A DNA stretch of 64,000 bases from the NCBI RefSeq assembly GCF_001669775.1, contig NZ_LXWK01000011.1, positions 496,001 through 560,000 of the forward strand, given 5' to 3'. Position numbers and translations under genes: made by a program. This DNA comes from Rheinheimera sp. SA_1 (lineage in GTDB: Bacteria > Pseudomonadota > Gammaproteobacteria > Enterobacterales > Alteromonadaceae). The notes below the pieces were generated by a model that was not told the DNA's origin, did not search any database, and saw only the letters and a program-made list of their open reading frames with translations. Positions 5,851 through 23,132 of this stretch are shown in pieces (the stretch's first letter is position 1; every line of letters starts with the position of its first letter).

Positions 5851-6996
5851 TTAGTCTCCTGAAGATACGGCAGTTGGTGCAGTCACTGCAGGACTCCATT
5901 GCGCCGGAATATTGATATTGACACAAAAACCATGTGGCTCCAGCGCCGTCAGGCTGAGTTGCGCCTGACCGGCAAAAACCAGCTGCAGGCGTTCCCGCAG
6001 ATTGGCGAGGCCAGTGCCTAAGCCTTTACTGCTCTGCTGGCTGCTGAGCCCGCAACTTAACCCAACACCGGTGTCTTTCACCTCCGCCAGACAACGTCCG
6101 TCTTGTAATCGCACCGAGACGTCGATTTGACCGCCTTCTTCACTGGGATCGATGCCATGCCGGATGGCGTTTTCCACCAACGTCAGCAAGGTCATCGGCG
6201 GGCATTGCACGGCAAGAGCTGCGGGTTCAGCCTGAATGGTAAACTGCAGCCGATCGGGCATCCGCATATGCATCAATTCCAGATAAGCCCGCACCAATTC
6301 TAATTCTTGTCCCAACGTGGTGGCACTGTTATGCAAATTGGGCACGGCCGCGCGTAAATAAGTGATCAGACTCCCCAGCACTTCGGATGCCTGTGACGAG
6401 CCGGAATCAACCAGCTCCCGCACGTTCGCCAGCGTATTAAACAAAAAATGCGGCTCGACCTGCGCCTGCAATAAACGCAGCCGTGAATCCAACGCGTCTC
6501 TGGCCAACTTACTGCGTTCCAGCTCAAACGACAACGCCTGCCGCTGCGCCTGGCCGTTGATATGGCGGTACAACGCCGACATCGCAATCCACGGCGACAC
6601 TAACAAACCGATGAAAAGCAAAATAGCAAAGCCAAACATTCTTTTCGGGTCGGTGCTCCACACTTCCGGATGAGAAAACGAGGTTACGGACATAATCAAC
6701 ACCGCAGCAAAAGGCGCCACAACAGCGACCGCTAACACCTGGAGCAACCAGCGCGCCATCCAGCGCGGCAATCGCTTCGGCCAGCGCTCGAAGATGCCAA
6801 AAACGAGCAATTGCAAGCCCCCGAGCATAAGTAGGCGGATTGGCGGTATGAACCAGCTGGAAACAAAAATGGGGATCCAGAGCGCGCTGAACAGCACACA
6901 GGCCAAAAGAACTATCCGCAGCCGCTGCCAACCAAACATCGCCGGTGGCGCTGGCGGGGTCGTTGGTAATGAAACTGAAGGTTCATGATGTTGCAT
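5851..6996 (-). CDS. LytS-like sensor histidine kinase (His_kinase family)
   Basis: A 381-residue membrane kinase. Four hydrophobic segments in residues 25-160 form the membrane domain. The signature H-box LLQAQVEPHFLFNTLANV of the LytS/YehU type follows, then an HATPase with N-box LVENAIRHGID and G-box VKDTGVGLS and a glycine-rich GLGTGLANLRERL. It lacks a large periplasmic sensor, so it may sense a membrane-embedded cue. It is the upstream gene of the LytTR regulator and is divergent from a DUF2306 membrane protein across a 373-base intergenic region. Confidence 0.9.
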   Translation of the reverse strand: MQHHEPSVSLPTTPPAPPAMFGWQRLRIVLLACVLFSALWIPIFVSSWFIPPIRLLMLGGLQLLVFGIFERWPKRLPRWMARWLLQVLAVAVVAPFAAVLIMSVTSFSHPEVWSTDPKRMFGFAILLFIGLLVSPWIAMSALYRHINGQAQRQALSFELERSKLARDALDSRLRLLQAQVEPHFLFNTLANVRELVDSGSSQASEVLGSLITYLRAAVPNLHNSATTLGQELELVRAYLELMHMRMPDRLQFTIQAEPAALAVQCPPMTLLTLVENAIRHGIDPSEEGGQIDVSVRLQDGRCLAEVKDTGVGLSCGLSSQQSSKGLGTGLANLRERLQLVFAGQAQLSLTALEPHGFCVNINIPAQWSPAVTAPTAVSSGD

Positions 6997-11147: not shown

Positions 11148-11906
11148 ATGTGGCTGAATCAACAGCAAATTACCGCCCCTGCTATCCGCACTTATCGCAC
11201 GGCTTTACTGCACTCGACACCCCATTATGTGGTGATTGATCAGTTATTTGATACCTCCAAACTGCTTGAAGTCAGTCGCGTTTTGCAGCAAGCAGATGGC
11301 TGGCAAACACAACACCATACCTACTCGGCTTTATATGTGGATCAGGCGAAGTGGCAGAAAACCCCGCAGGCGCAACGTTTTGTGCAGCGGGATGTCTGGC
11401 AACGTGCGGTGCCTGATGCTGATAATTCGATTGCTAAAAGCAGCACTGCTCATCTCTCCTCAGCCCAGCACTCCCCCGCCGCCCAGCCATTGGCTAATCC
11501 GGCGCAGGAGTTTTTGCAGTTTTTACGCGGGCCAGAATTTATGGCGTTGTTATCGCGGATTTTTAAGGTGCAAATCACCGATCTTAACGTGGCAAAACCT
11601 GAGGTTAATACCAATTATTTTCGCTTAGGAGCCCGTGATTTTGTCAATCAGCATGCCGATGACTCACCCGGTCGTGAAGTGTGTATGTTGTTGTATTTAA
11701 ATGAAGACTGGCAGAGCGATCAGGGCGGCGAACTGGTTTTTAGCGGCAAGGATGATAACCCGGTGCATATCGCGCCTTTTTTCAACCGTTGTGTGTTGTT
11801 TGACCCGTCGTCAGCGGGTTCTGAGCACTGGGTTAAAGCGCTGTCTGCTGAAACAAACACCCGGCACTATCGCTATAACGTCACTAGTTGGTATTGGTCG
11901 GAATGA
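11148..11906 (+). CDS. 2OG-Fe(II) oxygenase (prolyl-4-hydroxylase-like)
   Basis: A 252-residue dioxygenase. The iron-binding HxD is in FVNQHADDSPGREVCMLLYL, the distal His in SAGSEHWVKAL, and the 2-oxoglutarate-binding basic residue is probably the Arg of NTRHYRYNVTSWYW. This fits the cupin-like 2OG-Fe(II) oxygenase superfamily, whose members hydroxylate proteins or small molecules. A weak GAG lies ahead of the start, and no better start is seen. It is convergent with the binding-protein gene at 11936. The substrate is unknown. Confidence 0.82.
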   Translation: MWLNQQQITAPAIRTYRTALLHSTPHYVVIDQLFDTSKLLEVSRVLQQADGWQTQHHTYSALYVDQAKWQKTPQAQRFVQRDVWQRAVPDADNSIAKSSTAHLSSAQHSPAAQPLANPAQEFLQFLRGPEFMALLSRIFKVQITDLNVAKPEVNTNYFRLGARDFVNQHADDSPGREVCMLLYLNEDWQSDQGGELVFSGKDDNPVHIAPFFNRCVLFDPSSAGSEHWVKALSAETNTRHYRYNVTSWYWSE

Positions 11907-14121: not shown

Positions 14122-15033
14122 TCAGTGTTGTAGCCTCGCCAGTAAAAAATCGACAAACACCCGCAGCCGTAATGGCATATGCCGCAGGTGCGGGTACAGC
14201 AGATAAACCGGGCGAGAGGTGCCGCTGTGCTGGGGTAATAACTCCAGCAGTTCGCCGCGCGCTATGGCTTCGGCAAAGATAAACCGGTAAGTCTGCGCCA
14301 GTCCGGCACCTTGTTTGGCGAGGGTCACAACCCCCATCAGATCATCGCTGCAGCTGTAACTACCACTGGTTTGAACCTCAACTTGCTGGCCATTTTGCAT
14401 AAATAACCAGTGAATAGCGCGACCGGTGCTGGGCAATTCAAATTGCAGGCAGTCGTGCTGTTGCAGTGACGCTAAGCTGTCCGGTGCACCAGCGCGCTGC
14501 AAATACGACGGCGCCGCCACTAGTGTTAAAGCGGCGTCTTCCAGTTTACGGGCAATGAGGTTGGAATCTTTGGGGTCACGCATCCGGATCGCGAGGTCGA
14601 TATTATCGGCAGCAAAATCAATATTGCTATTACCCAGATGCAGATGAAACTGCACCGCCGGATATAACCGCCGGAACTCGGGTAATAACGGCAGCAACCG
14701 AAAGTGGGCATAAGGCGTTGGAGCACTGATCCGCAGCAATCCAGCAGGCGCCAACTGCTCGCCACTGACTTCCCGCTCGGCATCCATCAGCCGCTGCAGC
14801 GCGTCACGGCATTGCTGATAATAACGCTGGCCGTGGTCGGTCAGCCGGATCTGGCGGGTTGTCCGCACAAACAGTCTGACCCCCAGCCGGTCTTCCAGCC
14901 GCGAAATCGACCGGCTGACAGCGGCTGGGGTAATGCCGGCATTGTGTGCGGTCTGGGTAAAACTGCCGGATTCAACCGCCAGACAAAACAGCTCAATACC
15001 GCTGTATTGTTTATCGTCGAAGATACGTTTCAT
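14122..15033 (-). CDS. LysR-family transcriptional regulator
   Basis: A 303-residue LysR protein. The helix-turn-helix is SFTQTAHNAGITPAAVSRSI near residues 21-40, followed by RLEDRLGVRLFVRTTRQIRL and a substrate-binding domain. It is divergent from the SDR at 15198 over 164 bases and so probably regulates the SDR and tautomerase genes. No palindrome like the one at 10112 was found in this intergenic region, so it likely recognises a different site. Confidence 0.92.
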   Translation of the reverse strand: MKRIFDDKQYSGIELFCLAVESGSFTQTAHNAGITPAAVSRSISRLEDRLGVRLFVRTTRQIRLTDHGQRYYQQCRDALQRLMDAEREVSGEQLAPAGLLRISAPTPYAHFRLLPLLPEFRRLYPAVQFHLHLGNSNIDFAADNIDLAIRMRDPKDSNLIARKLEDAALTLVAAPSYLQRAGAPDSLASLQQHDCLQFELPSTGRAIHWLFMQNGQQVEVQTSGSYSCSDDLMGVVTLAKQGAGLAQTYRFIFAEAIARGELLELLPQHSGTSRPVYLLYPHLRHMPLRLRVFVDFLLARLQH

Positions 15034-15197
15034 CGCTGCTCCTCAGTACCTCTAAGTACTGCACAGTGCCAAGATTAATTACATTATGTATCAAGTGAAT
15101 CAATATTTACGATATTTATCGCACTCAAACGCAAGAGTAAAGTGCTCCCACTGACCCCGCTTTTGGGTGTCACTTAAAGAGCTTTGAGGAGCAAATG

Positions 15198-15941
15198 ATG
15201 AGTAACAGCAAAAAAACAGTCATCGTCACCGGCGCGTCCAGCGGTATTGGTTTTGCCATCGCCGCGGCGTATTTGCAACGTGGTGACAATGTCGTTGGTA
15301 ACGCCCGTACCCTGGAACGCTTGCAGCAGGCGGCCTTTAAACTGGGTAACCCAGACAACTTTTTAGCGGTGGCCGGTGATATCGCCTTGCCTGAAACCGC
15401 CGCAGCGTTATTTATGCAGGCCATCGAAAAGTTCGGCCAGGTTGATGTGCTGATTAACAATGCCGGTGCGTTTATCGCCAAACCGGTCAGCGACTACACA
15501 ACCGCCGATCTGGCTACGTTGGTTGCGACCAACCTGCAGGGTTTTTTCTACCCGGTGCAGCAGGCAGCCAGCCATATGCAAAGCATTGGCGGCGGGCATA
15601 TCGTGAATATCACCGCTAATATCGGTCTGCAGCCAACGGCCAAACTACCGGCCACCTTACCGGTGCTGATTAAAGGTGGCATTAACGCCGCCACCCGCCA
15701 TCTGGCAGTCGAGCTGGCGCCGGTCAATGTGCGGGTCAATGCGGTGGCGCCTGGCATTATCGAAACGCCGTTACACGGTAGTTTTGCCGATTCCAAAGCC
15801 TTTTTGAATCAGCTGTCGCCAAGTGGCAAAACCGGTTCAGTCGAGGACATTGTCGCTGCGGTGTTGTACCTGACTGACTCTGCATATGTCAGCGGCACTA
15901 TTATGGCGGTTGATGGCGGTGCTGCTGCCGGTACCTGGTAG
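15198..15941 (+). CDS. SDR-family protein lacking the catalytic tyrosine
   Basis: A 247-residue Rossmann protein with the cofactor loop TGASSGIG and NNAG (LINNAGAFIAK). At the usual YxxxK position the sequence is LPATLPVLIKGGINAATRH: the Lys is kept but the Tyr is replaced by Pro, and the usual catalytic Ser region reads VNITANIGLQ. The C-terminus SGTIMAVDGGAAAGTW is normal. The second of two adjacent ATGs is chosen because it lies a better distance (six bases) from GAGGAG. A related SDR subgroup with LTKGG-type motifs is known to lack the Tyr. It is followed by a tautomerase gene and is divergent from a LysR gene. Confidence 0.85.
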   Translation: MSNSKKTVIVTGASSGIGFAIAAAYLQRGDNVVGNARTLERLQQAAFKLGNPDNFLAVAGDIALPETAAALFMQAIEKFGQVDVLINNAGAFIAKPVSDYTTADLATLVATNLQGFFYPVQQAASHMQSIGGGHIVNITANIGLQPTAKLPATLPVLIKGGINAATRHLAVELAPVNVRVNAVAPGIIETPLHGSFADSKAFLNQLSPSGKTGSVEDIVAAVLYLTDSAYVSGTIMAVDGGAAAGTW

Positions 15942-15991
15942 TCGTTCATAAGCAGATTCACCAACAAGTTCACAAACAGAGGAATAGAACC

Positions 15992-16213
15992 ATGCCATAC
16001 GTCAATATCCGGGTGACCGATGAAGGGGTCACCACCGAGCAAAAACTGCAATTGATCGAGGGTGTTACTGAGTTGCTAAGCAAGGTATTGCACAAAGACC
16101 CTGCCACCACTTTTGTCATTATCGATGAAGTGAACACCGACAACTGGGGTCTCAACGGCGAAAATGTTACTAGTCGCAGGCGCAGGGAAGCGGCGGGCAA
16201 AGCTGTTATATAA
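15992..16213 (+). CDS. 4-oxalocrotonate tautomerase-family protein
   Basis: A 73-residue tautomerase. Processing of the initiator Met exposes the catalytic Pro (MPYVNIRVTDEGVTTEQKLQ). The family helix ELLSKVLHKDPATTFVIIDE and the C-terminal NTDNWGLNGENV fit 4-OT homologues, which form hexamers and interconvert enol and keto acids. It lies 50 bases after the SDR on the same strand and is probably co-transcribed with it. AGAGGAA precedes the start. Confidence 0.9.
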   Translation: MPYVNIRVTDEGVTTEQKLQLIEGVTELLSKVLHKDPATTFVIIDEVNTDNWGLNGENVTSRRRREAAGKAVI

Positions 16214-16432: not shown

Positions 16433-17173
16433 ATGGAACATATCGAACACATTCTGATCGTGGATGACGACCGGGAAATCCGCGAACTGGTTGGCAACTA
16501 CCTGAGTAAAAATGGCATGCGGATCAGTCTGGCCGCCGATGGCCGGCAAATGCGCACCTTTCTGGAAGCCAATGCGGTCGATTTAATTGTGCTCGACATT
16601 ATGATGCCGGGCGATGACGGCCTGCGGTTGTGCCGTGAACTTCGGGTCGGCAAACACAAAGCCATCCCCGTAGTGTTGCTGACCGCGCGCAGTGACGAAA
16701 CCGACCGCATTATCGGCCTGGAAATGGGCGCCGACGACTACCTGACCAAACCTTTTTCTGCCCGTGAATTGCTGGCGCGGATCAATGCGGTGCTCAGACG
16801 AACCCGGATGTTACCGCCAAATCTGCAAATCACTGAAAGTAACCGGCTGATAGCCTTTGGCGAGTGGCGGCTGGACACCAGCGCGCGGCATTTACTCGAT
16901 ACCGCGGGCACTGTGGTGTCGCTGAGCGGCGCCGAATATCGGTTATTACGGGTATTTTTGGATCATCCACAACGGGTCCTGAGCCGCGAACAATTACTGA
17001 ACCTGACACAGGGTCGCGAAGCCGACATTTTCGACCGCTCGATTGACTTGCTGGTCAGTCGTTTGCGGCAGCGCTTGCGGGATGATGCGCGGGAAGCAGC
17101 TTGTATTAAAACGGTACGTAATGAAGGTTATGTCTTTACCCTACCGTTGCAGCTGCTCGAGCCGGGAACCTGA
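16433..17173 (+). CDS. OmpR-family response regulator
   Basis: A 246-residue regulator. The receiver has the acidic cluster in LIVDDDREI, phospho-acceptor Asp in LIVLDIMMPGDDG, VLLTARSDE and YLTKPFSARELLARI. The C-terminal winged helix ends with RLRDDAREAACIKTVRNEGYVF. The start at 16433 (MEHIEHIL) is preferred to the upstream ATG at 16388 because GAGGA sits five bases before it. Its TGA overlaps the ATG of the kinase gene by one base. It is related to OmpR/RstA-type regulators. The downstream membrane genes (18659, 19291) are candidate targets by position only. Confidence 0.92.
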   Translation: MEHIEHILIVDDDREIRELVGNYLSKNGMRISLAADGRQMRTFLEANAVDLIVLDIMMPGDDGLRLCRELRVGKHKAIPVVLLTARSDETDRIIGLEMGADDYLTKPFSARELLARINAVLRRTRMLPPNLQITESNRLIAFGEWRLDTSARHLLDTAGTVVSLSGAEYRLLRVFLDHPQRVLSREQLLNLTQGREADIFDRSIDLLVSRLRQRLRDDAREAACIKTVRNEGYVFTLPLQLLEPGT

Positions 17174-18510
17174 TGATGCCACTGCGTCTACCGCAAAGTC
17201 TGGCCGCCCGGCTGGCACTGATTCTATTTATCGGTCTGGTGCTGGCGTATGGCTTATCGTTCAGCTCGCAGTTTTACGAGCGCTACCATACCGGCCGCAA
17301 TGTGATGCTGACGAACTTATCGACCGATGTCAGTACAGCGGTCGCTTTGCTGGACCGGTTACCGGCCAATGAACGGGCCGAATGGCTACCGCTGCTGGAG
17401 CGGCGTAACTACCGCTATCGGCTGCAACCAAAACCGCTCGGCGAGCCAATGAATATACAACAAGCGCCACTGGCCGCCCATACCATTGCACAGGCGGTGA
17501 ACCCGCGTTTTCAGCCACAGTTTTTTAATGTGCCGGGGCCGATGCCGCATTTTCAGGTGCAGCTGAGGTTAACAGACGGCAACTCGCTGATCCTGGATGT
17601 GACACCGGGTGGCATCCCAATTGCCCAGTGGTTGCCGGTGGTGTTGATCCTGCAGCTGTTGGTGTTACTGGGGTGTACCTGGCTGGCGGTGCATATGGCA
17701 ATCCGGCCACTGACCCGGCTGGCGCAGGCGGTTGATCAACTCGATCCCGATACGCCAAGCCCGGATCTGGTGGAACAAGGCCCCAGTGAAGTGGTGTATG
17801 CGGCACGGGCGTTTAATACCTTGCAAGGCCGGATAGCGGCTTTTCTGAAAGAGCGGATGCAACTGCTGGCGGCAATTTCGCACGATTTACAAACCCCCAT
17901 CACCCGGATGAAACTGCGGGTGGAGCAAATGCATGGCTCGCAGGAAAAAGACAAGTTATGGGGTGATTTAAGCGAAATGCAACATCTGGTGCGTGAAGGG
18001 GTGGCGTACGCCCGCAGCATGGACAGTGCGGCGGAGCCGGAATGCCGGATTGATCTGGATGCGTTTCTCGACAGTTTAGTCTGTGATTATCAGGACAGCG
18101 GCCAGCCGGTCAGGCTCATCGGCGCAGCGGACGGCAGCTTAGACAAAAGTACAGGCGGCAGCGGCACCATCATCAATACCCGGCCGCATGCGCTGCGCCG
18201 GGTACTGACCAATCTACTTGATAACGCAATAAAATTTGGCGGCAGTGCCGAGTTGCATGTGCAAAGTAGTGCCTCTGGTATCCTGCTGCAAGTGCTGGAT
18301 AACGGCCCCGGCATCCCTGAAGCGGAGCTGGCGCAAGTGCTGCAACCCTTTTATCGGGTAGAAAGTTCCCGCAACCGCGATACCGGGGGTACGGGTTTAG
18401 GGCTGGCAATCGCGCAACAACTCAGTCAGGCACTTGGCGGACGACTGACGTTACAAAACCGTCCCAGCGGCGGGCTTTGTGTCACGGTCGAGTTGCCGCC
18501 ACCGTTGTGA
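17173..18510 (+). CDS. EnvZ-like sensor histidine kinase
   Basis: A 445-residue kinase with TM1 near residues 12-32, a periplasmic loop of about 120 residues and TM2 near 155-178. A HAMP domain (AIRPLTRLAQAVDQLD) follows. The H-box AAISHDLQTPITRMKLRVEQ carries the phospho-His. The ATPase has an N-box NLLDNAIKFGG, G1 VLDNGPGIP and G2 GGTGLGLAIAQQL. It is coupled to the regulator gene through a TGATG overlap. The stimulus is unknown. Confidence 0.92.
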   Translation: MMPLRLPQSLAARLALILFIGLVLAYGLSFSSQFYERYHTGRNVMLTNLSTDVSTAVALLDRLPANERAEWLPLLERRNYRYRLQPKPLGEPMNIQQAPLAAHTIAQAVNPRFQPQFFNVPGPMPHFQVQLRLTDGNSLILDVTPGGIPIAQWLPVVLILQLLVLLGCTWLAVHMAIRPLTRLAQAVDQLDPDTPSPDLVEQGPSEVVYAARAFNTLQGRIAAFLKERMQLLAAISHDLQTPITRMKLRVEQMHGSQEKDKLWGDLSEMQHLVREGVAYARSMDSAAEPECRIDLDAFLDSLVCDYQDSGQPVRLIGAADGSLDKSTGGSGTIINTRPHALRRVLTNLLDNAIKFGGSAELHVQSSASGILLQVLDNGPGIPEAELAQVLQPFYRVESSRNRDTGGTGLGLAIAQQLSQALGGRLTLQNRPSGGLCVTVELPPPL

Positions 18511-18658
18511 AGTTTCGGTTTTAATACTTTGTGGTTTTGCTACATAGAGATACAAAAGGCCAGTTCACCGACACACGCAGGATACAGCGCCACCACAGAA
18601 TGGACAGCGAAGCAGCGATGGCACCCGCCCGTCGCGCTAAACCTGAAGGATCCTGTCC

Positions 18659-19291
18659 ATGACTTATCCCAATTCCGGGTCCGGCCTGCGTGGCTGGACT
18701 TTATTTCTACTAATGTCGTTACTGGTTTTACTGTTCGCCACCACCACCATGTTGTTACATACCGAACTGGTCGAAGCGTTACGCAGTGCCATCCGCGTCA
18801 CCGCCCGCACCTCATTTGCCTTGTTTTTACTGACGTTTTTAGCATCATCTTTGGTCACCTTGGTGCCAACCAATGGCACTAAGGCGTTACTGAGGGAACG
18901 GCGCTTCCTTGGCTTAGCCTTTGCTTTTTCGCATCTGGTGCACGGCATCCTGATCCTGACCTATGCGCAGTTGTTTCCGGAAACCTTCTGGGCCGGCCGC
19001 ACCCCGGCTGCCAATATTCCGGGCTCCACCGGCTACCTGTTTATTTTGCTGCTGACTATCACGTCGTTCCCGGTGATGGTGCGGTTATTGGGTTTTCGCA
19101 CCTGGAAATGGCTGCACTCAACCGGCACCTGGGTGATCGCTGCAATTTTCTGTTTGTCATTTTATAAACGGCTGCCGCTGCACCCTTGGTACCTGATCGG
19201 CTTTAGCATCATGGTGTCAGCGATTGTGCTGAAACTCACCGCCAAAACCGCAATCCGTGCCCGCAAAAGCTCACAAGCAGGAGTTCTGTGA
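18659..19291 (+). CDS. Ferric-reductase-like transmembrane protein
   Basis: A 210-residue protein with about six transmembrane helices. His residues in FSHLVHGILI and TWKWLHSTGTW sit in helices as heme-ligand candidates, as in the ferric reductase-like/MsrQ superfamily. There is no flavin or NADPH domain, so any electron donor must come from another protein. AAGGATCC precedes the ATG. Its TGA overlaps the ATG of the doxX gene (TGATG), so the two are coupled. A copper or redox role is suggested by the hvf locus next door, but this is inference. Confidence 0.75.
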   Translation: MTYPNSGSGLRGWTLFLLMSLLVLLFATTTMLLHTELVEALRSAIRVTARTSFALFLLTFLASSLVTLVPTNGTKALLRERRFLGLAFAFSHLVHGILILTYAQLFPETFWAGRTPAANIPGSTGYLFILLLTITSFPVMVRLLGFRTWKWLHSTGTWVIAAIFCLSFYKRLPLHPWYLIGFSIMVSAIVLKLTAKTAIRARKSSQAGVL

Positions 19292-19811
19292 TGAGACAAG
19301 CGCTGATGAACCCTTCTCTCAACACACTTTTTAGAACCACAGATCAAACATTAAATACCCTTGGGTTATGGCTGGCAGATATCCCATTGCGATTGTGGCT
19401 GGGCTGGGCTGGGAGTTTTTTGAGGCCGGTGTAGAAAAATGGCAAGGAGAAAACTGGTTTGTACAAATACAGGCGAATTTCCCATGGCCATTTCAGCTGT
19501 TTCCGGCCAGCCTGAATTGGCAGCTGTCGATGTGGATTGAACTGATAGCGCCGGTGCTGATTGTGCTTGGCCTTGGCACCCGCTTGGCCAGCTTGTCGCT
19601 GATGGCACTGACTGTGGTCGCCATTGCTGCTGTGCACTGGCCGGCCGAGTGGTCCACGCTGGCGGAACTGGCGATGGGTTATTCCATCAGTGACAAAGGC
19701 TACGGCAACTACAAATTACCGCTGATTTACCTGGTGGCGCTATTCCTGCTACTGTTCAAAGGTGCGGGCCAGCTGAGTCTGGATGCGCTGCTGCGTAAGC
19801 GCGGTTGCTAA
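19291..19811 (+). pseudogene. DoxX-family membrane protein (HvfX-like), frameshifted
   Basis: The natural start is ATG 19291, coupled to the upstream stop with AGGAG nine bases ahead. It reads LGLWLADIPLRLWLGW and then shifts frame, stopping at codon 48 (TAG 19432). The rest of the family sequence continues in another frame: FFEAGVEKWQGENWF, IELIAPVLIVLGLGTRLA, YKLPLIYLVALFLL. The break coincides with three tandem CTGGG units at 19399-19413; removing one unit restores a continuous frame of 171 residues with four helices. The in-frame ATG at 19368 has no clear ribosome-binding site and would lose the first helix. DoxX proteins (HvfX) accompany hvfABC clusters. A slipped-strand or phase-variable state, decay, or a sequence error are all possible. 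Confidence 0.8.
19399..19413 (+). repeat. Three tandem CTGGG units at the doxX frameshift
   Basis: The units occupy 19399-19403, 19404-19408 and 19409-19413. Two copies would keep the doxX frame open; three copies put a stop codon 18 bases downstream. Confidence 0.85.
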
Positions 19812-19821
19812 GGGTCTGAAC

Positions 19822-19881
19822 CCGCTCACCAATACCAAAAGGGCTGACGTTTATTTCAGCCCTTTTAGTATTTGTGAGCGG
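19822..19881. terminator. Long bidirectional terminator hairpin between doxX and hvfC
   Basis: CCGCTCAC ... AAAAGGGCTGA on the left pairs with TCAGCCCTTTT ... GTGAGCGG on the right, around a short CGTTTATT loop. A-rich and T-rich stretches flank the core stem on each strand, so it can serve the convergent doxX and hvfC transcripts. Confidence 0.8.
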
Positions 19882-19957
19882 TAGTGAATATTTTTAGGAG
19901 AAGTTGATGTTGGTGCTGATATTTGTGTTGCAACTGGCATTGCCAAGCTAGAAAACC

Positions 19958-19987
19958 TTACATTTCAAAACGTTACATTTCAAAACG
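19958..19987. repeat. 15-base tandem duplication at the hvfC stop codon
   Basis: TTACATTTCAAAACG occurs twice back to back (19958-19972 and 19973-19987). The minus-strand TGA of hvfC lies in the second copy, so the first copy repeats the stop region immediately downstream of the gene. Confidence 0.85.
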
Positions 19988-20783
19988 TTATAACGCCCTG
20001 CCCCCGCAGCTGCTCCAGCAACTTTGTGCCTTGCGGTAACAGTGCCGCCAGCTCGACGCCCATCATTTGTGCTAATGCAGCCAGATGCTGTCGTGCTGAC
20101 CACTGCTGTTGCTCAATCGACACCAGCAAGGCATAAACCAGTGGTGCCAAACGTGAAAAGTACACTTTGAAGTCAGCTTTGCGCTGCGCCAGTAACAAAG
20201 TTGGTTGCGCTAACGGTTGCGTTAATGGTTGCGTTAACGGCTGCTGCAATGACTGTTCCGGTAAATAACCGGGGCCAATATCACAGACCGGCCATTGATA
20301 CGCCAACGGCCAGGCCAGCGCCGATAACACCGGCACTGCATTCAGCAAATCCGCAGCGCCTAAAACAGCGGCAACCGGACTAACAGCAGGCACAGCAGCA
20401 AACTGCGGCGCATCACGCAACAGCAACGCAGTTTCGACCCGCTCGTAATGTGCCAGCTCAGCCAGCCATAACGGCAGCTTTAATCGCTGCGCCGCCCCTT
20501 GCTCCAGATACAGCACAAACTCCGCACCAAGCTCAGTAAACAGTGGCGTTTGGCAGCGAAAGTTGGCATAAAAATCCTGCACCAGCCGCTGCCAGTGCTC
20601 TGCGCCAACACTGGCGCAAAGTACCGGAAAACCTGCCGCCAGCAGCGCTTCGATATTGCCATAAAACAGCTGCCGGTAAATGGCCAGCCGCCGTGGCTCA
20701 ATGCCCGGAGGTGGCACCGAACCGGACGGATCACGCACATAACACGCCAGACAAAGCAGTTGTTGCTCAAGGGTCTTATCCAT
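19980..20783 (-). CDS. hvfC: DUF2063 protein, HvfC/BufC-like partner of the MNIO enzyme
   Basis: A 267-residue protein of the DUF2063 family, recognised from [25 protein letters not shown] followed by [21 protein letters not shown]. In hvf/buf clusters this protein is the required partner of the DUF692 enzyme and binds the precursor peptide. An in-frame repeat [13 protein letters not shown] occurs near residues 185-198. Its start overlaps the end of hvfB by eight bases, so the two are coupled. The last codons lie in a duplicated 15-base segment. The cellular site is the cytoplasm, where the precursor is modified before export. Confidence 0.88.
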
Positions 20784-21669
20784 AACTGGCTTCCCGCTGT
20801 TGCAAATGGCGAACGTGCGAAACTTCAGTCAATAGCTCAGCCAGCGGCGGAAAATTAAAGTCCCGTTCCAGCACCGTGGGCACAGCGCCAAAACGTTGAT
20901 AAGCCTGTTGCAGTAACTGCCAGACGTCAGTTTTCACAGCAGCGCCATGGGTATCAATTTTCAGATCCGGCGCTTCGTCGTAATGCCCGGCCACATGGAT
21001 ACACACCACTTTATCAGCAGGCACCGCCGCCAGATAAGCGCTGGCGTCGTAGTTATGGTTCACCGAGTTTACATACAAATTATTGATATCCAACAGCAAA
21101 TCACAATCTGCTTCACGCACGACGGCATTCAGGAAATCAATTTCTGCCAGCGCTTGAAAAGGCGCGGCATAGTAGGAAATATTTTCCACAGCAATCCGCC
21201 GCATTAACTGATCCTGCACTTCACGGATCCGGGCTGCTACATGCAACACCGCCTCATCGGTAAAAGGTAACGGCAGTAAATCGTAGAGCTGGGCTTCATC
21301 AGAGCAATAACTCAGATGTTCACTGAACAACGGTACTTGGTGACGGTCCAGAAACTGACGAGTACGCTTTAGCAAATCACGGTCCAGCGGCGCCGGCCCC
21401 CCTAACGACAACGACAAGCCATGACAACTCAGCGGATATTGTTCGGCTAGACTCATCAGCTGGTTGCCATAAGCGCCGCCGACATCAATCCAGTTATCAG
21501 GCGCACACTCCAGAAAATCAACCGCAGTGCTATCCATTGCCAGTAATTCGGGCAACATCGCCCGGCGTAAGCCGAGACCGGCACCTTGTAAAGTGTTTAA
21601 TTTAGTCTTAGTGCTATTCACTGTACTAGTCGTTGTATTGGTCGTTGTATTAGTCGTTGTATTGGTCAT
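20776..21669 (-). CDS. hvfB: DUF692 multinuclear non-heme iron oxidase (HvfB/BufB-like)
   Basis: A 297-residue TIM-barrel MNIO enzyme. Metal-ligand motifs are visible in order: FSEHLSY, the Glu of [28 protein letters not shown] and LERDFNFPP. Family members modify Cys in precursor peptides to oxazolone-thioamide or related groups that bind copper. The start is the second of two adjacent ATGs because GGAGGG lies five bases upstream; the longer frame to 21732 would run into an attenuator hairpin. The N-terminus is a low-complexity TNTTT repeat absent from the core fold. It sits 73 bases after the EGKCG precursor gene. Confidence 0.92.
21628..21663 (-). repeat. Three 12-base repeats encoding the TNTTT N-terminus of hvfB
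   Basis: Units of 12 bases at 21628, 21640 and 21652 differ by a single base. They encode four residues each, so copy changes would alter length without breaking the frame. The resulting Thr/Asn tail precedes the first strand of the TIM barrel. Confidence 0.8.
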
Positions 21670-21686
21670 CATACCCTCCAGAAGGC

Positions 21687-21720
21687 AAAAAGCCCCCGGC
21701 AGCCGAAGCATGACGAGGGC
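21687..21720 (-). terminator. Attenuator-like hairpin between precursor gene and hvfB
   Basis: On the minus strand, GCCCTCG (21720-21714) pairs with CGGGGGC (21698-21692), including one G-T pair, and five T follow. It lies after the precursor stop and before the hvfB ribosome-binding site. Partial termination here would give more precursor than enzyme transcript. Confidence 0.6.
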
Positions 21721-21742
21721 GGGTGTTAACACAACATGCTTA

Positions 21743-22219
21743 CTATTTCGCCTGGCTCAGGCGGGTAAACAGCTCTTGTGGCACTGCTTTGCCATTGGAT
21801 TCATAAACATTTTTCATGTAGTTGAAGGTTTCGGCTTCTGACAAAAAACCGTTTTGGTCGACGTCGATTTCGGTAAACACTGCAGCGCGGGTTGGCGCCA
21901 CGGCTAGGAATTCTTTGCGCGACACCAGGCTATCGTCGTCGGTATCGGTGGTAGCAAAAGATGCGTCACCACATTTACCTTCGCCACATTTGCCTTCGGT
22001 TGCTGCAACTTTGGTGTTGCTTTCTGCACCACCAAACTTTTCTCCACCACATTTACCTTCACCACATTTGCCTTCGCCGACTTTCACCAAAGTGGTCAGT
22101 TGATAACCCTGCGGCAATTCATCCATCGCAAAAGCGGCTGTACTCAAATTCAGGCCACCTAATAATGCGACCGCCATAAAGCCTAAACGCGTGGTATTTG
22201 TTGATTGATTACGAGACAT
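21743..22219 (-). CDS. hvfA: EGKCG-repeat RiPP precursor with two EF-hands (HvfA-like)
   Basis: A 158-residue protein. The start at 22219 follows GGAG with good spacing; the longer frame to 22393 is unsupported. A signal peptide ends near AAFA (residue 31). Four EGKCG units lie at residues 49-58 and 75-84, in two pairs separated by [17 protein letters not shown], where GEKFG looks like a unit that lost its Cys. Two canonical EF-hand loops follow: D92-D94-D96-E103 and D119-D121-N123-E130. In the Haemophilus hvf pathway, EGKCG cysteines are modified by the MNIO enzyme to make a copper-binding product. It is the first gene of the minus-strand operon. Copper sequestration is inferred. Confidence 0.88.
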
Positions 22220-22712
22220 GTTGTTTCTCCAGATTTGAACGCGGCATGTCCGCGTGCTGATGCCGTTACGGCGCATTTCCGAACAAGAGTTGCTTATTCG
22301 GGTGTAGCTATTTAGCCGCACTGTTGTATCCACCACGTATCGGGTAACCGGTGGATTTGTACGCGACTGCAACGGAACCGGCGTTAGAAACAAACAGATA
22401 CATTGCGACTTAAGCGGTAGCGCGGCTGGAACCTTGCAAATTGCCCCGAAACAGCGATGTTGTTGGCTTTGGTGTTTGCGTTTGTATCCGTTTGTATCAA
22501 TCAGGCCGCCAGCTACAAAACATTACAGCGCGGGCTGATCAGGACATATCTGCGGCACATGACAATGCAAAACTGCATCACAGGGGCGGACACCATCTGG
22601 CCCTTCCCGGAAATCTCAAACCAAGCTGAACCAAGCTGAACCAAGCTGAACCAAGCTAAAAATATGCCGCGCCTTGACCGGCAAAGCATTCAGCACCTAA
22701 GAGGAAAAAATC
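22220..22712. other. 493-base intergenic region between hvfA and ohr
   Basis: No convincing gene is seen. The region must hold the divergent promoters of the hvfABC operon (minus) and ohr (plus). Short open frames here lack ribosome-binding sites. A 10-base tandem repeat lies at 22619-22658. AGAGGA precedes the ohr start. No recognisable CueR or ECF-sigma site was identified. Confidence 0.6.
22619..22658. repeat. 10-base tandem repeat AACCAAGCTG, about four copies
   Basis: Units start at 22619, 22629, 22639 and 22649; the last unit ends in A instead of G. The period is close to one helical turn. It lies about 55 bases upstream of ohr. Confidence 0.8.
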
Positions 22713-23132
22713 ATGATCACAACCATCGACAAAGTTGTTTACACAGGCAAGACCCACACCACCGGCGGTCGCAACGGCGAATCGCAGAGCTCTGACGGCC
22801 GGTTAAATATCAAGCTATCGGCGCCAGGCTCGTCTGGCCCGGGCACCAATCCAGAGCAATTGCTGGCTGCTGGCTGGTCGGCTTGTTTTATTGGCGCGAT
22901 GGGAAAGGCTGCAGCAGAGCTTAAAATCACGCTGCCGTCCGATACCGCAGTGGATACCGAAATTGATTTAGGTCTGACCGACGATGCTTATTTTTTGCAA
23001 GCACGACTGAACGTCAGTCTGCCGGGTCTGGATCCGGCGATCGCAGCAAAGTTGACCGAAAAAGCCCATCAGATTTGCCCATATTCAAAAGCCACCCGTG
23101 GCAATATCGCGGTGACTATTCAGTTGATTTGA
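22713..23132 (+). CDS. ohr: Organic hydroperoxide resistance protein (Ohr/OsmC family)
   Basis: A 139-residue thiol peroxidase that reduces organic peroxides in the cytoplasm. Both redox cysteines are present, in GWSACFIGAMG and HQICPYSKATRGN, as is the Arg-bearing GGRNGES region. Length and ending (NIAVTIQL) match the Ohr subfamily rather than YhfA-type OsmC. AAGAGGAAAAAATC precedes the ATG. No ohrR gene is adjacent. An intrinsic terminator follows at 23183. Confidence 0.93.
   Translation: MITTIDKVVYTGKTHTTGGRNGESQSSDGRLNIKLSAPGSSGPGTNPEQLLAAGWSACFIGAMGKAAAELKITLPSDTAVDTEIDLGLTDDAYFLQARLNVSLPGLDPAIAAKLTEKAHQICPYSKATRGNIAVTIQLI

Follow-up and report, generated by a model that had tools for sequence, protein, structure and literature searches.

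Known Systems Related to the Locus

In Pseudomonas aeruginosa, the seven genes PA4101-PA4107 comprise bfmR, bfmS, PA4103 (ferric-reductase-like), PA4104 (DoxX), PA4105 (DUF2063), PA4106 (DUF692), and efhP, and their two-component system BfmRS, known for its role in infection, responds to osmotic stress and controls siderophores, according to published work. Their counterparts, arranged in the identical convergent order, are described here in Rheinheimera sp. SA_1, within a window of 64,000 nucleotides (assembly GCF_001669775.1, contig NZ_LXWK01000011.1, positions 496,001 to 560,000 of the forward strand), whose own numbering is used below. With a probability of roughly 0.75, they form a bfmRS-efhP module, in which BfmRS would switch on an EF-hand thiooxazole copper-metallophore pathway of the captophorin/oxazolin type together with a heme/DoxX membrane redox module.

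In P. aeruginosa, BfmR has the published motif TACAA-N3-GATACA and binds the promoters of bfmR, PA4103, and PA4107, which are its three strongest peaks in chromatin immunoprecipitation. It induces all five genes from PA4103 to PA4107 and raises efhP 11,268-fold. Moreover, the papers on EfhP deal with calcium homeostasis and effects on iron uptake and propose that its EGKCG cysteines sense iron, and one paper on BfmRS names DUF692, DUF2063, DoxX, and a ferric reductase beside bfmRS.

A second group of studies concerns ribosomally synthesized and post-translationally modified peptides (RiPPs) made with MNIO enzymes. The HvfB, HvfC, and HvfX families and the EGKCG motif are common to the window, the hvfABCX genes of Haemophilus influenzae, which make oxazolin, and the captophorins (fontiphorin and gonophorin). 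In the products of H. influenzae, F. thermophila, and N. gonorrhoeae, the EGKCG cysteines are converted into 5-thiooxazoles and copper is bound, HvfX being uncharacterized. Unlike H. influenzae hvfABCX, the window contains a precursor with an EF-hand domain, an hvfX placed with a ferric-reductase-like gene (FRE below) in the facing operon, and a linked BfmRS. The Buf_EGKCG|EF-hand chimaeras (PMC12452194, Microb Genom 2025) combine, as in the window, an EGKCG repeat and two EF-hands with an MNIO, a DUF2063 protein, and DoxX. That paper reports ferric-reductase genes in few EGKCG clusters and cites EfhP as an EF-hand example; the term two-component is absent from its main text, and the parts consulted do not present FRE and BfmRS as genes that are conserved together.

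The two literatures on these seven genes, BfmRS and EfhP in P. aeruginosa on the one hand and MNIO copper RiPPs on the other, hardly meet, and the gap between them lies in naming rather than in the gene map. Among the matches listed from the mostly open literature covered, which give no proof of absence, no paper joined BfmR and MNIO, BfmRS was not presented as controlling a peptide of this type, and BfmRS, FRE, HvfX, and hvfABC were not found described as one multi-genus module with conserved boxes. The parts are already known; what is apparently new is their view as a module conserved across several genera with conserved BfmR boxes. The main value of the locus is thus as a bridge between the BfmRS/EfhP and MNIO metallophore fields. 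If the link is true, the signal of BfmS and the function of EfhP become chemical questions, namely whether a thiooxazole is formed, whether Cu(I) is bound, and whether FRE reduces Cu(II).

The bfmRS-efhP Locus of Rheinheimera sp. SA_1

The locus is a real hvf-type MNIO RiPP set plus facing regulator and membrane genes (Table 1). It consists of two gene sets facing each other, hvfABC on the minus strand (22219-19980), with hvfA as the first gene of its operon, and bfmR-bfmS-FRE-hvfX on the plus strand (16433-19811), in which the start of bfmS overlaps the stop of bfmR at 17173. An earlier note, written by a model from the letters of the window, had described a minus-strand operon with an EGKCG precursor, a DUF692 MNIO with its ligand motifs, and a DUF2063 partner, and a regulator/kinase pair before FRE, all of which the family models and motifs bear out. 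Its proposal that FRE and the regulators are new partners does not stand, since the same seven genes are PA4101-PA4107 and their control by BfmR is published.

Orthologues of BfmR and BfmS lie beside FRE, HvfX, and hvfCBA in the convergent order of P. aeruginosa PA7, which is the published order of PA4101-PA4107, so the window locus is the bfmRS-efhP locus in another genus. The names given to the PA7 genes come from gene order and the papers, without use of the PAO1 sequence. The window regulator is 93-94% identical to BfmR of four congeners and 86% identical to that of PA7, whereas the other regulators in the 21 genomes searched reach at most 58%; BfmS is 63% identical to its PA7 counterpart. 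A search of PDB sequences with the window regulator returned response regulators in general only. In contrast to P. aeruginosa, hvfX is frameshifted here, bfmR has no clear box, and the neighbours include Ohr and tautomerase/SDR genes.

Table 1. Features of the bfmRS-efhP locus, in window positions
Feature	Position	Strand	Basis
BfmR-type OmpR-family response regulator	16433..17173	+	Response_reg + Trans_reg_C (Pfam)
BfmS-type sensor histidine kinase	17173..18510	+	HATPase_c over cut-off; HisKA, HAMP below Pfam cut-off
BfmR-box-like site, 1 mismatch, 5' of FRE	18541..18554	+	motif scan
FRE, membrane protein of 210 aa with six helices, ferric-reductase-like (STEAP/MsrQ-like), without a further domain	18659..19291	+
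hvfX first part, 47 codons then stop	19291..19434	+	reading-frame break
hvfX (DoxX) remaining part, second frame	19368..19811	+	NF050144 128.5 bits, cut-off 80
CTGGG x3 repeat, point of hvfX frame change	19399..19413	+
Hairpin between converging operons, possible terminator	19837..19866	.	hairpin search
HvfC, DUF2063 partner	19980..20783	-	NF050145 236.3 bits, cut-off 142; PF09836, PF22106
HvfB, MNIO (DUF692)	20776..21672	-	NF003818 420.6 bits, cut-off 360
HvfA precursor, EfhP-type, 158 aa	21743..22219	-	EGKCG motifs, EF-hand loops, NF050137
BfmR-box-like site, 1 mismatch, 5' of hvfA	22389..22402	+	motif scan
Exact BfmR box TACAANNNGATACA 5' of hvfA	22483..22496	-	motif scan
Ohr-type organic hydroperoxide reductase, divergent from hvfA	22713..23132	+	TIGR03561 155.5 bits, cut-off 88.85

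BfmR Boxes and the Probable Control of Both Operons

The position of BfmR boxes suggests that BfmRS very likely controls both operons of the locus. With up to one mismatch, four sites occur in the window (one exact, three with one mismatch) against 0.82 expected, and only 1 of 100 shuffled windows reached four. Three of them are in promoters of this locus, two 5' of hvfA and one 5' of FRE, and the fourth, at 11682, is elsewhere; the counterparts of hvfA and FRE have BfmR-bound promoters in P. aeruginosa.

The spacing of the boxes is also partly kept. The distal edge of the site at 22389 is at -183 from the hvfA start, and among hvfA sites with up to two mismatches in 36 relatives at least 18 lie at -177 to -190 and the others between -99 and -225, the box of the four congeners being at -152 or -153 in the opposite orientation. 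The distal edge of the FRE box is at -118 here and at -119 in the four congeners.

Among the related loci, defined as the best 80 of 168 HvfB relatives, the region upstream of hvfA could be measured in 76, and a box with up to two mismatches was present there in 36 of 54 loci where the genome carries BfmR, versus 0 of 22 where it does not. Of 62 loci examined for genes after bfmS, 37 have FRE or hvfX behind it on the same strand within 700 bases, and the first such gene carries a box with up to one mismatch in 33 of these 37 (FRE in 24/26, hvfX in 9/11), compared with 34 of 1860 random 250-base windows; hvfX as the second gene has a box in none of 25 cases. The scans covered 250 bases for the first gene, 200 for the second, and 350 for an hvfX that leads an operon. 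Where hvfX leads one long operon, the upstream box has one mismatch in eight of nine loci and two mismatches in the ninth. This includes the Lysobacter-type loci L033, L045, L060, and L066, all four of which have a one-mismatch box 5' of the operon-leading hvfX and no box upstream of hvfA, FRE, or the regulator. Thus, the box tracks the first gene of the operon, whichever gene this is.

Conservation and Distribution of the Module

Of the 80 related loci, 25 have BfmR, BfmS, and HvfX in their fetched flanks, and 17 of these 25 have FRE as well. The earlier note would have been refuted had relatives not kept the convergent genes with hvfABC; this comparison did not refute it, and the regulators and the ferric-reductase-like protein belong to the hvf-type locus. 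The 25 loci show three layouts, converging as in the window (17), hvfX-hvfABC with bfmRS downstream (4), and hvfX-hvfABC with bfmRS divergent upstream (4). The 17 converging loci all belong to Pseudomonas, with PA7 among them; six of them are without FRE, and the spacing varies. BfmR was searched in all 79 genomes of the 80 loci, with orthologues in 14 of 21, 29 of 29, and 11 of 29 genomes. In addition, 31 BfmR regions outside the flank of the first hvf locus, a part of all such regions, were read, and 15 of them have FRE or hvfX behind bfmS, four of these also with hvfBC.

In the genus, BfmR, a whole FRE, and a second HvfC co-occur in the same 5 of 22 genomes. An HvfC that passes the cut-off is present in all 22, and the other locus, read for the window genome, is a classical hvfABC. 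In a sixth genome, G002, there is an FRE remnant of about 214 bases (L140, G002:C1:4424000-4438000, about 6469-6702) that adjoins a flank shared with G019, so at least one loss of the locus probably happened; given this remnant, the view that the genus acquired the locus recently is not favoured for G002. In the class, FRE was found at E 1e-10 in only 4 of 369 genomes, including that of the window, and it is therefore not a class-wide gene. Two of the four, the window genome and G316, have it together with hvf genes, and the weak cases L137 and L139 do not.

Copies of BfmR and BfmS (BfmR 78-81% identical), with no FRE or hvfX seen behind them, were observed at L124, L128, L130, L152, L154, and L155. 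The genomes of L124, L128, L130, and L154 contain another such copy, these four being the second, and L155 ends at a contig edge.

The Precursor HvfA and Its Probable Modifying Enzymes

HvfA contains four EGKCG motifs arranged as two pairs, with four cysteines in total, two EF-hand loops detected by the pattern for canonical loops, and an N-terminal hydrophobic segment ending in AFA that, judged by eye, resembles a signal peptide. It passes the EGKCG domain model NF050137 (28.7 vs 19.5 bits) and fails the HvfA equivalog NF050188 (27 vs 95 bits), which places it in the EF-hand chimaera type, distinct from HvfA proper. The earlier note was right about the EGKCG repeats of the precursor, but the EF hands of the protein had passed unremarked.

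HvfB scores below the bufferin MNIO model NF050167 (277.4 vs 310 bits). It has ERDFN and the other ligand motifs; the H, D, and E residues of these motifs, which would be the metal-ligand positions of MNIO enzymes, are retained by 78 to 80 of 80 relatives. A relative is 3BWW (E 1.2e-77), and the ratio of nonsynonymous to synonymous divergence (dN/dS) of HvfB is low, similar to that of the hvfX remainder discussed below. By analogy with the known EGKCG products, we infer that HvfA would here be modified to 5-thiooxazoles and would bind copper.

Alternatively, the locus could serve calcium and iron signalling, HvfA acting mainly as a calcium sensor of the EfhP type while its EGKCG motifs sense or bind iron and copper is incidental. 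Both EF-hand loops of the window are canonical, and the EfhP papers, with their calcium homeostasis, iron uptake, and proposed EGKCG iron sensing, point in this direction. However, HvfB and HvfC have been conserved along with the precursor, the EGKCG products described in the publications considered are 5-thiooxazoles associated with copper, and iron sensing by unmodified cysteines would need no HvfBC. Moreover, the canonical EF-hand pattern detects one loop only in some HvfA relatives of the 80 loci. A signalling locus of this kind therefore seems somewhat unlikely.

The Membrane Proteins FRE and HvfX

FRE is predicted to be a six-helix membrane protein similar to STEAP and MsrQ. Its AlphaFold2 model (mean predicted local distance difference test, pLDDT, 89.8) has six long helices, and in a structure search of the PDB the top matches were STEAP4, STEAP1, and STEAP2, followed by the membrane domain of NOX5, STEAP4 being the sole match below E 0.001 (E 9.3e-4, root-mean-square deviation 6.1). 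STEAP proteins hold one heme between helices 3 and 5 and reduce Fe(III) and Cu(II), and a STEAP-like single-heme reductase is defined by six helices with a histidine on each of helices 3 and 5. In FRE, three histidines do not vary among the 22 sequences compared: H92 and H95, both on the third long helix, and H153, on the fifth. The fold and histidines are compatible with the single-heme pattern, except that helix 3 has two invariant histidines, and FRE probably carries one b heme. Six helices with histidines on helices 3 and 5 are also found in MsrQ and the NOX membrane domain. A difference is that FRE has no flavin or nucleotide domain, for which its 210 residues leave no room, and its electron donor would thus be another protein or the quinone pool.

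The window FRE itself matches no Pfam family at E 0.1, and 11 of 19 sequences aligned with it match Ferric_reduct (PF01794). It was rejected as an MsrQ, with 23 bits against the equivalog cut-off of 130, and no MsrP was present among the nine neighbouring proteins scanned, no wider search having been made.

The stop of FRE and the start of hvfX overlap in TGATG (19289-19293), as the earlier note had stated for FRE and doxX. However, the frame opened by this ATG stops after 47 codons (stop at 19432-19434), and the segment that matches HvfX (19368-19811) is in a different frame from its start codon, the change of frame coinciding with three tandem CTGGG units. The family score is over the NF050144 cut-off, yet the frame is broken and no intact DoxX is encoded, so its product would be absent or altered in SA_1 unless the assembly is wrong. 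In all four congeners carrying the locus, hvfX is unbroken and the CTGGG repeat is missing at the same place. A second HvfX over the cut-off is encoded elsewhere in the genome (G000:C12:31109).

This break might be the first step in the loss of the locus from SA_1, as in the congener G002, which keeps only an FRE remnant beside the shared flank; among the five congener loci only that of the window is frameshifted. Nevertheless, the reading frames of the six remaining genes are intact, and the hvfX remainder shows nonsynonymous divergence (dN) of 0.10-0.12 and synonymous divergence (dS) above 1.3, which is near saturation, and thus a dN/dS as low as that of its neighbours FRE and HvfB. Therefore, the break is either very recent or an assembly error. 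Any loss would be very recent as well, and decay of the locus is improbable. As another candidate reading, hvfX may undergo phase variation through the CTGGG repeat; the copies are only three, and the repeat was not found in the four congeners.

FRE and HvfX could also be unrelated to copper and provide electrons for HvfBC or for quinone or peroxide detoxification, with Ohr as a further partner. An Ohr gene adjoins hvfA here and is near hvfA in four congeners, in one of them as fragments, and an electron source is plausible because MNIO activity needs a mixed-valent diiron state. However, when HvfBC and FonBC are produced in Escherichia coli, precursor modification needs neither FRE nor HvfX, and FRE is missing from 8 of the 25 BfmR-linked hvf loci, so that such a role is unlikely.

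The Signal of BfmS and the Proposed Mechanism

The best NCBIfam match of BfmS is EnvZ, below the cut-off. The AlphaFold2 model of its sensor domain (pLDDT 83.6) has as best PDB match the periplasmic domain of RisS (E 0.022, template modelling score about 0.4-0.5), a match so weak that the ligand of the sensor cannot be named. Among its conserved periplasmic histidines, H126 occurs in 23 of 30 sequences and a histidine near position 130 in 27 of 30, the window having Q at the second, and this conservation is suggestive only as a clue to function.

BfmS could sense osmolarity or the state of the envelope, and the metallophore and redox genes would then be a general stress output, which is in line with the osmotic response and siderophore control reported for BfmRS in P. 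aeruginosa, with the EnvZ match, and with the weak likeness to RisS. However, the promoters that BfmR targets most strongly are the three of this very locus, and BfmR boxes track its genes across genera, so an osmotic or envelope-stress regulon appears possible, though doubtful. This alternative concerns the signal and is compatible with the copper-metallophore module preferred here. Copper as the stimulus of BfmS is a natural guess from the product; osmotic stress has been reported as a stimulus, and calcium and iron act on EfhP or its expression.

In the proposed mechanism, the BfmRS two-component system would turn on the two converging operons, and HvfB and HvfC would oxidize the four EGKCG cysteines of HvfA to 5-thiooxazoles in the cytoplasm. 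HvfA could then be exported by means of its putative signal peptide to the periplasm or envelope, where the modified repeat would hold copper and the EF-hands would bind calcium. FRE, probably with one b heme, and the DoxX protein HvfX would most likely pass electrons across the inner membrane, which could, for instance, maintain copper as Cu(I) for the metallophore or supply the chemistry of maturation. We infer this redox role of FRE and HvfX, as well as the signal of BfmS. A more far-reaching reading, in which copper would act through BfmS, is decidedly unlikely; on this reading, what BfmRS does to virulence and biofilms in P. aeruginosa would lie downstream of metal handling.

Several observations weigh against this proposal. 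No box with up to two mismatches is present 5' of bfmR in the window or in the four congeners (best 3 or 4 mismatches), unlike in P. aeruginosa, where the bfmR promoter is itself bound by BfmR. BfmR and an EF-hand HvfA are present without an hvfA box in six Pseudoxanthomonas genomes (L049, L056, L061, L062, L063, and L074), in which bfmRS stands alone. In 16 of the 31 BfmR regions, of which L155 is cut by a contig end, neither FRE nor hvfX lies behind bfmS, so BfmRS is not tied to hvf, and some genomes that lack BfmR have an EF-hand HvfA as well. The coupling is thus common and not obligatory. Moreover, the box counts take genomes as independent, without correction for kinship, and differ in scan length between first and second genes (250 vs 200 bases). 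The match of FRE to STEAP is modest at the values given above, and hvfX is frameshifted in this genome. In addition, the published stimulus of BfmS is osmotic, and the work on EfhP points to calcium and iron, not to copper.

Neighbouring Genes and Other MNIO Loci

The hairpin between the converging operons, with 11 pairs and a T-rich tail, is a possible terminator by its placement, its plus-strand count being weak (1 vs 0.6 expected by chance). Ohr is a recurrent neighbour whose membership of the locus is uncertain. It was observed near hvf in the four congener loci (as fragments only in L115) and in the fetched flank of 6 of the 80 relatives (L004, L008, L017, L021, L022, and L033), a count made without a chance control. 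On the other side of the locus, the stretch 14122-16213 contains, as named by eye, genes for a regulator of the LysR type and a dehydrogenase of the SDR type (15195-15941), and a tautomerase-like open reading frame of 73 residues (15992-16213). In G019, the segment 15068-16176 is found at the opposite end of the locus, so the edges of the locus have been rearranged between congeners.

The genome of the window has two further MNIO loci. A classical hvfABC is located at G000:C12:855184-856738 (L001/L116), where the upstream region has no BfmR box and the best site shows 4 mismatches, and a third, more distant MNIO locus at G000:C3:71060-71869 (L003/L117) scores 197 bits against a cut-off of 360. 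In G019, a second EF-hand EGKCG precursor-like gene (L112:3130-3564) stands just before bfmR, apart from hvfABC.

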